Source: Alphaproteobacteria bacterium (lineage in GTDB: Bacteria; Pseudomonadota; Alphaproteobacteria; Micavibrionales; Micavibrionaceae). Taken from it: DNA of 64,000 nt. The stretch's first letter is position 1. Each line of letters opens with the position of its first letter. Positions 6,648 through 53,456 of the stretch are shown in pieces. Under the pieces are notes generated by a model. The model was not told the origin of the DNA. It searched no databases and worked only from the letters and a program-made list of their open reading frames with translations. The position numbers and the translations under genes are program-made. The DNA lies in the NCBI GenBank assembly GCA_020442475.1, contig JAGRKA010000006.1, forward strand, positions 1-64,000, written 5' to 3'.

Positions 6648-6716
6648 AACCCGCTCGGTAAAGCCTGATTTTAATTTCAGCCCCTATTGAGGGACTACTC
6701 TTTTATACAGAAATGT

Positions 6717-6742
6717 GTAACTATCCGCAGACTGCGTTCGAA
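6717..6742 (+). promoter_or_regulatory. Candidate ECF sigma-F-type promoter of the bufferin operon
   Basis: GTAACT at 6717-6722 is followed after exactly 16 bases by CGAA at 6739-6742. The Caulobacter sigma-F promoter pattern, as I recall it, is GTAACC-N16-CGAA, so this differs at one base. It sits in the only intergenic region before bufA, leaving a leader of roughly 65 nt. The assignment is inference from pattern and context; no sigma factor gene is in the window. Confidence 0.55.
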
Positions 6743-6813
6743 CTTACAATGACACAAGGGACACCCCCTTACAACCAGTACAACTCTTGAAACCCTATGG
6801 AGGAACAAAAATC

Positions 6814-7152
6814 ATGGTTTCTAAAAAGACTGTAAATACATTGCTCGCCGGTGCCATTGCTTTCACAATCGCTGGAGCTGCCGCATCCGCTCAGGCTTCC
6901 GGGGACATGGAAGGCAAGGAAAAGTGCTTTGGCGTTGTTAAAGCCGGGCATAATGATTGTGGTAATGCAGGGAAAACCCATTCCTGCGCAGGAATGGCCA
7001 GTGTTGACGGCGGCAGCGACGAATGGGTTGCCCTGCCCGAAGGCACCTGTGAAAAGCTTGTTGGCGGTTCACTCGAAGCTCACGCTGGAGACGGTGAAGA
7101 AGCACATGACGTGGTAGAGGGTCAAAACGCGGATCACGGCGCAAGCCACTAA
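6814..7152 (+). CDS. bufA: Bufferin precursor peptide (DUF2282, BufA1-like)
   Basis: A 112-residue precursor of a ribosomally made, post-translationally modified metallophore of the bufferin class. It has a signal peptide (hydrophobic residues 8-27, AQAS cleavage region) and then the DUF2282 core with four cysteines at residues 38, 49, 58 and 79 in the contexts EKCFG, NDCG, HSCAG and GTCEK. In characterised bufferins the cysteines are modified by the MNIO partner and the periplasmic product binds copper. The C-terminal tail after residue 85 is rich in His, Asp and Glu, an unusual addition. The ATG at 6814 has GGAGG about 10 bases upstream. First gene of bufA-B-C-D; bufB starts 7 bp later. Confidence 0.9.
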   Translation: MVSKKTVNTLLAGAIAFTIAGAAASAQASGDMEGKEKCFGVVKAGHNDCGNAGKTHSCAGMASVDGGSDEWVALPEGTCEKLVGGSLEAHAGDGEEAHDVVEGQNADHGASH

Positions 7153-7159
7153 GCCATCA

Positions 7160-8062
7160 ATGGGGCGCTCTCCATTACAAGGCGAAAACGCCTCTTCGTT
7201 CCCACCGGCTCAACCTCCTTCCGAGCCGGTGGGAATAGGCCTACGCTACCCTTATTACGAAGAAATCCTGACAACGGACCTTCCGCTTGGATGGCTTGAA
7301 GTCCATCCTGAGAATTATTTCGGCGGCGGCGTTCACCGGTATTTTCTTGGAAAGGTCCGAGAAAAACACCAGATCAGTCTGCATGGAATCGGCTTATCTT
7401 TAGGCTCGGATCAACCTGTACGTGAAGACCATCTTCGCCAGTTCAAAGAGTTGATTGAGCTGTACGCACCCTTTAACGTCTCCGACCATGCCTCTTGGAG
7501 TGCAAGCGGTAACGCCCATCTAAACGATCTTTTGCCCTTGCCCTACACGCAGGAAAGCCTTGACCGGCTTGCCCGGAATGTCGAACGGACGCAAAACTAT
7601 TTTGGTCGCCGCATTCTGGTTGAAAACCCCTCGACCTATCTCGCCTTTAGCGGCAATGAGATGCATGAAGATGCCTTTATGAATGCGCTGGCAGAGATGA
7701 CAGGCTGCAGAATTTTGCTGGATATCAATAATATATACGTACAGGCTCACAATCATGGCTACGATGCGTACGCTTATATCGATACAATCGAAACACGCTA
7801 TATTGGGGAATTCCATCTGGCCGGACATATAGAGCGTGAAGCTGGTAAACGTACGCTTTTAATCGATACGCACTCTCGCCCTGTCAAAGATGATGTATGG
7901 AATTTGTATGCTTATGCACTTCGCCGCCACGGCATTATCCCAACTTTGATAGAATGGGATCAGGATTTTCCAAGCCTCGATACACTTGTTGGAGAAGCAC
8001 AGAAGGCACGGGCGCTTATTCAAAGCGCAACCGAAACGGAGATTTCGGATGCGGCTGAATGA
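7160..8062 (+). CDS. bufB: MNIO-family peptide-modifying enzyme (DUF692, BufB)
   Basis: DUF692 proteins are multinuclear non-heme iron-dependent oxidases that modify cysteines of partner peptides, here presumably BufA. The TIM-barrel metal-site motifs are visible: LHGIGLSLGS near residue 74, SDHASWS near 111, VENPSTY near 153, LLDINNIYVQAHNHG near 185, FHLAGH near 217, DTHSRPV near 235 and IEWDQDFPS near 263. The length of 300 is normal apart from a proline-rich N-terminus of about 20 residues before GIGLRYPYY; no clear ribosome-binding site precedes the ATG at 7160, so a later start is possible. It overlaps bufC by 14 bp, which suggests coupled translation. Confidence 0.92.
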   Translation: MGRSPLQGENASSFPPAQPPSEPVGIGLRYPYYEEILTTDLPLGWLEVHPENYFGGGVHRYFLGKVREKHQISLHGIGLSLGSDQPVREDHLRQFKELIELYAPFNVSDHASWSASGNAHLNDLLPLPYTQESLDRLARNVERTQNYFGRRILVENPSTYLAFSGNEMHEDAFMNALAEMTGCRILLDINNIYVQAHNHGYDAYAYIDTIETRYIGEFHLAGHIEREAGKRTLLIDTHSRPVKDDVWNLYAYALRRHGIIPTLIEWDQDFPSLDTLVGEAQKARALIQSATETEISDAAE

Positions 8063-8840
8063 CGTACAGGCCCGTTTCAAGGAGATAATGCTGGACCACC
8101 CGGACGCACTTCGAACGCCCGGTGACGATTTCGCTGCCCTATTCACCGCCGGAGATATACCTTTGCCCGCCCGCCTGAGCGTTTACCGCAATAATATTGT
8201 CGGGTCCTTGACCGATGTTATGGTTGCGGGTTTCCCGCTGATTGATAATCTGGTCGGGCGGGCCTTCATGGAAAAAATGGCGCGGAGCTTTATCCTCGAA
8301 AACCCGCCGCAAAACGGATGTCTCAACCTGTACGGCGAAGGATTCGAACATTTCATAGAGCGCTTCGAACCGGCAAAAAGCCTGCCCTATCTGGCGGATG
8401 TCGCCCGGCTGGAGATCGCGCTGAACGCCGCTTATTATGCGCCGGATGACACACCGCTCCCCCCGGACGCTCTCGCACGGATTGCCGCGGACTCTCTGGC
8501 TGAAACAATTCTTCTCCCGCGCAAGGCCGTACGTCTTATCACCTCTCCCTATCCGCTTGAAAAAATACGTGATTTTTGCCTTTCCAGCAACAAAGACAGG
8601 GCGGAAACGCTTGATATTTCAACAGGCGGATGCCACCTCCTGATAGACCGCCCGGCACTGGATGTACGTGTATCGACCTTACAGAAGAGCGAATACACCT
8701 TCCTTTCAGACCTGCTTGCCGGGCAAACTCTGGGGGCGGCGCTTGAACATACGCTCACCCTTGATGAAACATTTGATGTTCACAACGCACTTCAAAGATT
8801 TTTCACGCTTGAGGCGTTTTCAGCCATAAACCCGAAATAA
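8049..8840 (+). CDS. bufC: BufC-like partner protein (DUF2063 / HvfC family)
   Basis: A 263-residue protein of the DUF2063 family, the usual partner of DUF692 enzymes; such partners are thought to recognise and present the precursor. The N-terminal domain shows RLSVYRNNIVGSLTDVM and GFPLIDNLVGRAFMEKMA near residues 38-75, the hallmark of the family. The C-terminal half is less conserved and ends in a predicted helix-rich stretch. I chose the ATG at 8049 because GGAG lies just upstream and because it overlaps bufB by only 14 bp; the frame is open further upstream from a TTG at 7986. Confidence 0.88.
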   Translation: MRLNDVQARFKEIMLDHPDALRTPGDDFAALFTAGDIPLPARLSVYRNNIVGSLTDVMVAGFPLIDNLVGRAFMEKMARSFILENPPQNGCLNLYGEGFEHFIERFEPAKSLPYLADVARLEIALNAAYYAPDDTPLPPDALARIAADSLAETILLPRKAVRLITSPYPLEKIRDFCLSSNKDRAETLDISTGGCHLLIDRPALDVRVSTLQKSEYTFLSDLLAGQTLGAALEHTLTLDETFDVHNALQRFFTLEAFSAINPK

Positions 8841-8879
8841 CCCTTTAGGAGCAAACAGCTATCAAGTCAGGAGTTTACC

Positions 8880-9368
8880 ATGCATAAATTTTTGCACCGC
8901 ATAGACAACGCCATCACCCCCTTGCGAACATTTGCGAATTTTGCAGGCGCGCCTCTTTTGGACCTCATTATTCGGCTATATTTGGCTAATGACTTCTTTA
9001 AATCAGGTATAACCCGTTTCAATGACTGGAAAAACGCTAGTTTCGACAATCAGATTTTTTTATTCTCGGCCGAGCACCCCGTCCCGTTCCTGCCGCCCGA
9101 AGCCGCAGCCTATGTCACAATGTCAGCAGAGCTTATCTTGCCGGCGCTTCTTGTTGTTGGGTTATTCGGACGGGCTGCCGCAGCCGGCCTCCTGATTATG
9201 ACAGCCGTCATTGAATTCACCTACGGCCATTTCGACGTACATATTCTCTGGGCCTTTCTTGCAGCTTCAATTCTTGTCCGTGGACCGGGTGCCCTTTCCC
9301 TTGATACGGTATTGTTGAAAATACTGCGCCGGGTCAATACGAAAAACCCTGCCGCCTCGACTTTATAA
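8880..9368 (+). CDS. bufD: DoxX-family membrane protein (BufD-like)
   Basis: A 162-residue inner-membrane protein of the DoxX family with four hydrophobic segments, including AYVTMSAELILPALLVVGLFG near residue 78 and HILWAFLAASILVRG near 121. The first segment contains RLYLANDFFKSGITRF, the typical DoxX start. DoxX proteins are a regular fourth member of bufferin operons; their role there is not settled. CAGGAG lies 7 bases before the ATG. The 39-bp gap after bufC has no terminator, so it probably shares the operon transcript. Confidence 0.88.
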   Translation: MHKFLHRIDNAITPLRTFANFAGAPLLDLIIRLYLANDFFKSGITRFNDWKNASFDNQIFLFSAEHPVPFLPPEAAAYVTMSAELILPALLVVGLFGRAAAAGLLIMTAVIEFTYGHFDVHILWAFLAASILVRGPGALSLDTVLLKILRRVNTKNPAASTL

Positions 9369-52834: not shown

Positions 52835-52946
52835 CTTTTGGTAAGCGTTTTAAGATAAAGGAAAAATGAGAATTTGTAACCTCGACCGGACCGGATACGA
52901 ATATGCTTTCATGATGTGAACAAGCCCGGAGAGAGGTCTTTACGTA

Positions 52947-53456
52947 ATGAAAAATCTGGCCATCATTTTTATTTTAGTTTTTAGCATAATATTTGGCATT
53001 ACTTACAATTCCAACGCCGGAGACGATACGATGAAGAAAGAACCTGTGAAACAACTCACAACTCTCCAAGAATACGTCACGCAGCATGATGGCACGGAAC
53101 CGGCCTTTGACAATGAATATTGGGATAATAAAGAGCCCGGTATCTATGTTGATGTTGCCTCAGGCGAACCGCTTTTTTCCTCTATTGATAAATATGATTC
53201 GGGGACAGGCTGGCCCAGCTTCACGAAACCGATCGATCAGGATGTTCTCCAAAGCAAAGCTGATTACAAAGTGCTGATCCCGCGTACGGAGGTTCGCTCA
53301 TCCAAAGCCGACTCCCATCTTGGCCATGTCTTTGATGACGGCCCCCAAGACAAGGGCGGGAAACGTTACTGCATTAATTCCGCTGCTTTACGCTTCATCC
53401 ATAAAGATGATCTGGAAAAAGAAGGCTATGGTGAATATCTCGCACTTTTTGAATAA
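52947..53456 (+). CDS. msrB: Peptide methionine sulfoxide reductase B, secreted
   Basis: Reduces methionine-R-sulfoxide in proteins. The first 25 residues ([22 protein letters not shown]) form a signal peptide or anchor, so it probably works in the periplasm. MsrB motifs are [11 protein letters not shown] near residue 90, [19 protein letters not shown] near 116 and the catalytic Cys in [12 protein letters not shown] near 143. The zinc-binding CxxC pairs of many MsrBs are absent. GGAGAGAGG lies upstream of the ATG. Its position between nrdA and nrdB is unusual. Confidence 0.93.

Follow-up and report, generated by a model that had tools for sequence, protein, structure and literature searches.

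A Buf1 bufferin operon behind a conserved SigF-type promoter in Micavibrionaceae, with its sigF-nrsF block most likely lost to an assembly gap

Introduction

Control of bufferin operons by the ECF sigma factor SigF and its anti-sigma factor NrsF has been described in Caulobacter crescentus, for which the published SigF promoter motif is GTAACC-N16-CGAA (PMC3511200). NrsF (or OsrA) retains SigF at the membrane by a cysteine-dependent interaction, and metals or oxidants free the sigma factor for transcription from GTAAC-N16-CGAA promoters (PMC3511200, PMC3420878). An association of sigma/NrsF genes with Buf1 clusters has also been described (PMC12452194). A literature search on Micavibrio, ECF sigma factors, and copper returned no match.

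Here we analyzed the first 64,000 bases (the window) of a 79,656 bp contig (C98) from a Micavibrionaceae assembly (G000) of 2.1 Mb in 131 contigs, rated 100% complete with 2.1% contamination. The window holds a bufABCD operon preceded by a SigF-type promoter, and a search of it found neither sigF nor nrsF, as the first-pass annotation of this DNA had stated. Comparison with relatives leads us to propose that bufABCD is very probably read from an ECF16 promoter by a SigF encoded in a distant block that was lost to an assembly gap.

Results

The bufABCD operon and its promoter

The coordinates of the operon, of its promoter, and of the further exact sites discussed below are collected in Table 1. 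Inspection by eye of the BufA translation revealed an N-terminal hydrophobic signal peptide and four Cys in the DUF2282 region, in agreement with the four conserved Cys expected of Buf1 precursors. BufB, accompanied by its DUF2063 partner, clears the equivalog cut-off of the NCBIfam model NF050167 (MNIO_BufB) with 351 vs 310 bits. By these sequence features bufABCD is a Buf1 bufferin operon, with copper binding predicted for its product, and Pfam and NCBIfam agree with the bufferin layout given in the first-pass annotation. Past the DUF2282 domain, BufA has a C-terminal tail (window 7075-7149) rich in His, Asp, and Glu, GDGEEAHDVVEGQNADHGASH. The gene order ribF-buf-lspA is common to many relatives, which marks the buf locus as vertically inherited. 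At two loci (L060 in G061 and L090 in G077) bufA occupies the ribF-lspA position behind a SigF-type promoter with no MNIO gene adjacent, that is, as a bufferin precursor without a local maturase.

Table 1. Features of the window and further exact motif sites in the assembly
Feature	Position	Strand	Basis or remark
ECF16/SigF-type promoter TGTAACT-N16-CGAA	6716..6742	+	Sequence match; family conservation
Ribosome-binding site GGAGG, 10 bases 5' of bufA ATG	6799..6803	+	Sequence inspection
bufA, Buf1 bufferin precursor (DUF2282)	6814..7152	+	PF10048, E 9.3e-23
bufB, MNIO (DUF692) bufferin maturase	7160..8062	+	PF05114, E 9.6e-99
bufC, DUF2063 partner protein, overlapping bufB end	8049..8840	+	PF09836, E 1.7e-17
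bufD, DoxX-family membrane protein	8880..9368	+	PF07681, E 2.5e-14
Second ECF16/SigF-type promoter TGTAACC-N16-CGAA (exact GTAACC-N16-CGAA 52876-52901)	52875..52901	+	71 bp before msrB start codon
msrB, secreted methionine sulfoxide reductase, 169 aa, N-terminal signal	52947..53456	+	PF01641, E 1.5e-46
Exact site before rpoH (L001)	G000:C33:30112-30137		117 bp upstream
Exact site before DsbD/ScsB-like gene (L003)	G000:C59		
Exact site before alpha/beta hydrolase-OsmC fusion gene (L005)	G000:C87		

The promoter upstream of bufA consists of a -35 element GTAACT (6717-6722) with a T just 5' of it, a spacer of 16 bases, and a -10 element CGAA (6739-6742), located 71 bp 5' of the bufA ATG; transcription is predicted to start at about 6748-6751. 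This sequence falls within the pattern GTAAC[C/T]-N15/16-CGAA of ECF16 regulon promoters and departs by one mismatch from the Caulobacter motif, as the first-pass annotation had correctly stated (PMC3511200). A scan for sigma-70-like promoters upstream of bufA returned two weak matches, where 2.5 would be expected, and one of the two overlaps the start codon of bufA.

Conservation of the promoter in the family

Sixty further DUF2282 loci were collected from relatives, and the 300 bp preceding the DUF2282 domain were scanned in the 41 MNIO-linked buf loci of the family, among them the locus in the window. GTAACN-N15/16-CGAA was found in 33 of the 41, for a frequency of about 0.2% per region predicted from shuffles, at 138-207 bp from the domain (173 bp in the window). 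Among the eight loci without it, five (G029, G069, G055, one G064 locus, and G028) keep TGTAAC[CT] with one- or two-base changes in the -10 element, that of G040 has CGTA, and in the second G064 locus the form is the weaker CGTAACT, so that G023 is the sole case among the 41 with nothing resembling the motif. Stand-alone DUF2282 genes mostly lack it, with two exceptions that are both in the ribF-lspA position.

The buf loci of one genus (g30; L043, L044, L045) carry CGCA instead of CGAA at -10. Two of its genomes (G029 and G069) contain NDUS4, a gene of the sigF-nrsF neighborhood described below, and searches of both found neither NrsF nor a SigF-grade match, while in a third (G055) the NrsF system is divergent and CGTA-type sites lie next to the sigma gene, the buf -10 again being CGCA. 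This contrast fits with SigF maintaining the CGAA element, which is suggestive but does not amount to proof.

Raw counts of the motif could be taken to mean that the bufA site arose by chance and that a housekeeping promoter transcribes bufABCD, as the exact motif occurs 8 times in the assembly vs 6 for the reversed pattern, and the counts per genome in relatives are likewise no higher than the control. Because raw counts were not enriched, position and conservation were used as criteria. By position, three of the eight exact sites are intragenic and five lie 70-117 bp upstream of start codons, a placement expected for 3.3% of random positions (P ~2e-6); in 14 relatives, 42 of 115 examined sites were promoter-like vs 5.6% expected. 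Two sites were found in the window itself, against 0.18 expected after shuffling. This positioning and the retention of the motif in 33 of 41 loci already refute a chance origin, and the unconvincing sigma-70-like scan speaks against a housekeeping promoter, leaving this explanation a negligible probability. The family-wide conservation is the decisive evidence: judged by sequence comparison, GTAACT-N16-CGAA upstream of bufA is a genuine promoter element of the SigF/ECF16 type, which bears out the earlier description of the site.

Genes behind the other exact sites

The five promoter-positioned sites of the assembly precede bufA, msrB, a DsbD_N/DsbD_TM (ScsB-like) gene, an alpha/beta hydrolase-OsmC fusion gene, and rpoH. 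The msrB site, at 52876-52901, is absent from the first-pass annotation. In the 14 relatives the recurrent site-bearing genes encode secreted MsrB, MsrA, ScsB-like, DsbA-like, and OsmC-hydrolase proteins and BufA, with rpoH appearing once; secreted MsrB-like genes are preceded by the same site in 5 of the 14. Genes of these classes are known from the ECF16 regulons of Caulobacter, Bradyrhizobium, and Brucella (PMC3511200, PMC3420878, PMC8315932). The proposal that the regulator might be shared among several buf loci did not hold, as the assembly has a single DUF2282 gene and its other promoter-positioned sites precede stress genes. The motif thus appears to be common to a predicted regulon of periplasmic thiol, oxidative, and copper stress, and not to several buf loci.

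The least expected member of this predicted regulon is rpoH, for which sites were seen in two genomes only, the second being G088 (L184), where an exact site lies 65 bp upstream. A cascade in which the SigF of Micavibrionaceae also drives rpoH is a tentative idea, to which we give rather less than even credence; if true, it would pass periplasmic metal/thiol stress to the cytoplasmic heat-shock response.

On the other hand, the exact motif is absent from the 350 bp upstream of sigF in most family relatives, so autoregulation of sigF is not supported in them. A GTAAC-N17-CGAA sequence at one fixed place inside sigF in four relatives was rejected as a promoter, being coding sequence (conserved Val-Thr ... 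Gly-Glu). In one relative (G018:C4:1-1799, L100) a gene for a TVP38/DedA-like membrane protein diverges from sigF and has its own GTAACT-N16-CGAA site; a TVP38/DedA-like gene of another (G046, L187) also has a site.

Sigma factors of the assembly

Searches of the whole assembly found no NrsF (DUF1109) and no SigF-grade match, the best score with the SigF profile being 60 bits vs 197-247 for intact SigF. The only sigma-70 family genes detected were rpoD, rpoH, and one PRK05602-like ECF gene; a LuxR-type regulator on contig C42 and RpoH on C33, both among the Sigma70_r4_2 matches, are not ECF factors. Taken literally, this is the outcome that the first-pass annotation had named as counting against its reading, and a contig break, described in the next section, is its best explanation.

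As the sole ECF factor detected in the assembly, the PRK05602-like protein (C43:76.9-77.5 kb) might itself read the buf promoter, and the EF-hand and Metal_resist neighbors of its gene suggest metal sensing. However, the 60 bits that it obtains with the SigF profile fall far short of intact SigF, there is no GTAAC element upstream of its own operon or of most of its orthologues, and the known readers of GTAAC-N16-CGAA are NrsF-linked sigma factors (PMC3511200, PMC3420878, PMC8315932). The candidate was rejected, and we regard its involvement as very improbable. Its operon (L009, G000:C43 at ~75.5-78.6 kb) encodes an EF-hand protein, the ECF sigma factor, a small protein of unknown type, and a Metal_resist protein; the small protein has one likely membrane segment and is a possible anti-sigma factor.

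The sigF-nrsF block of relatives and the contig break

NrsF was detected in 57 of the 89 genomes of the family, and nearly all loci examined have an ECF sigma gene adjoining it. In these relatives sigF-nrsF has its own conserved neighborhood, usually away from buf, in the order F9-HAD-patatin-ABC transporter-(hydrolase)-CBS-DUF192-sigF-nrsF-NDUS4. The families of the neighbors were assigned by eye; for DUF192 and NDUS4, Pfam searches followed. In 53 of the 57 NrsF-bearing genomes NDUS4 and NrsF are within 4 kb of each other, and a tRNA-Pro(TGG) gene before sigF and a tRNA-Arg(TCT) gene after NDUS4 were found in all six relatives scanned. Thus the earlier suggestion that the regulator acts from elsewhere agrees with the arrangement in relatives, and only its absence loses its character as a puzzle.

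Neither DUF192 nor NDUS4 was found by the Pfam searches of the source assembly, even though 97 of 105 good-quality relatives have NDUS4. Contig C73 carries the block's upstream half (F9, HAD, patatin, and ABC transporter), of which the last three share 69-80% identity with those of a relative (G062). C73 terminates at base 1 within the ABC transporter gene, pointing to the side where sigF is expected, so that the syntenic block of the undetected ECF16 sigma-NrsF pair is interrupted by a contig end; we propose that this is why sigF-nrsF is absent from the assembly. All 11 family genomes without NDUS4 also lack NrsF (Fisher P 3.5e-6), and of the five genomes that have an exact buf site and no NrsF, four lack NDUS4 as well (P ~0.001). 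In G018, sigF is truncated by the end of contig C4 (L100) and the buf promoter is intact. In the simplest reading, an assembly or binning gap has left these assemblies without the sigF-nrsF stretch, and neither loss nor an unknown regulator would have to be invoked.

True loss of sigF-nrsF together with DUF192 and NDUS4, the promoters being relics or weakly read by another sigma factor, would account for the failure to detect all four genes in a genome rated 100% complete, and genus g30, two genomes of which keep NDUS4 with no NrsF or SigF-grade match found, shows that SigF can go. Against this, C73 breaks off within the ABC transporter gene, just short of the expected place, and five coherent genes still have the exact motif before them, in contrast to the SigF-less genus g30, in which the buf -10 has shifted from CGAA to CGCA. 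Moreover, genes for tRNA-Pro(TGG) and tRNA-Arg(TCT) are normally indispensable. As in relatives both of them lie inside the stretch that is missing here or at its edge, a cell would probably not survive its clean deletion without copies elsewhere. We therefore consider true loss unlikely, and the absent sigma factor most likely reduces to a distant locus combined with an assembly gap.

Discussion

For the source genome we infer, by analogy with described systems, the steps beyond the presence and conservation of the motif, namely the reading of the bufA promoter by SigF, the nature of the signal, and the existence of the missing block in the organism. In the proposed mechanism, the six-helix anti-sigma factor NrsF would hold SigF at the membrane, both being encoded in the distant ABC transporter-CBS-DUF192-sigF-nrsF-NDUS4 neighborhood. 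Metal or thiol-oxidising stress would release SigF, which would then transcribe bufABCD from the ECF16 promoter at 6717-6742. The regulon would shield the periplasm through the bufferin (copper chelation), MsrB, the DsbD/ScsB-like reductase, the OsmC-type hydrolase, and possibly RpoH.

Control of bufferins by SigF/NrsF would in this way reach from Caulobacter to the Micavibrio-like order, the comparative evidence being a promoter retained throughout the family and a separate location of sigF-nrsF, and the bufferin would be tied to a broader regulon of periplasmic thiol and oxidative repair. The case also carries a caution, in that synteny can reveal an assembly gap behind the apparent absence of a regulator from a fragmented genome.

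Regulation of the SigF type is already known from ECF16 systems, of which bufABCD is a further case. The operon shares the DUF2282-MNIO-DUF2063-DoxX core of Buf1 clusters (Antoine et al. 2025, PMC12452194); unlike those that include sigma/NrsF genes, it has neither a sigma nor an anti-sigma gene in its cluster. The EcfF-OsrA system of Bradyrhizobium and the BcrS-AbcS system of Brucella (both ECF16) have a DUF1109 anti-sigma factor, a GTAAC-type promoter like that found here with a slightly different spacer, and methionine sulfoxide reductases among their targets, as predicted here; those of EcfF-OsrA include a putative cytochrome c biogenesis protein. A bufferin operon, present here, is not reported among the targets of either system in the parts of their descriptions consulted.

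The SigF-NrsF regulon of C. crescentus (CC3252-CC3257, CC2907-2905) shares with our locus both the bufABCD order and GTAAC[C/T]-N16-CGAA upstream of bufA (PMC3511200). No change was seen in msrA homologues of Caulobacter; the regulon predicted here contains, beyond that of Caulobacter, msrB, a dsbD/scsB-like gene, an OsmC-hydrolase gene, and rpoH. The first-pass annotation had placed the Caulobacter buf genes beside sigF-nrsF, which by gene number is right for CC3252-CC3257 and wrong for the distant CC2907-2905 (PMC3511200). The two organisms would thus differ in the place of the regulator, which adjoins one buf operon in Caulobacter and is expected here in the distant DUF192-NDUS4 block.
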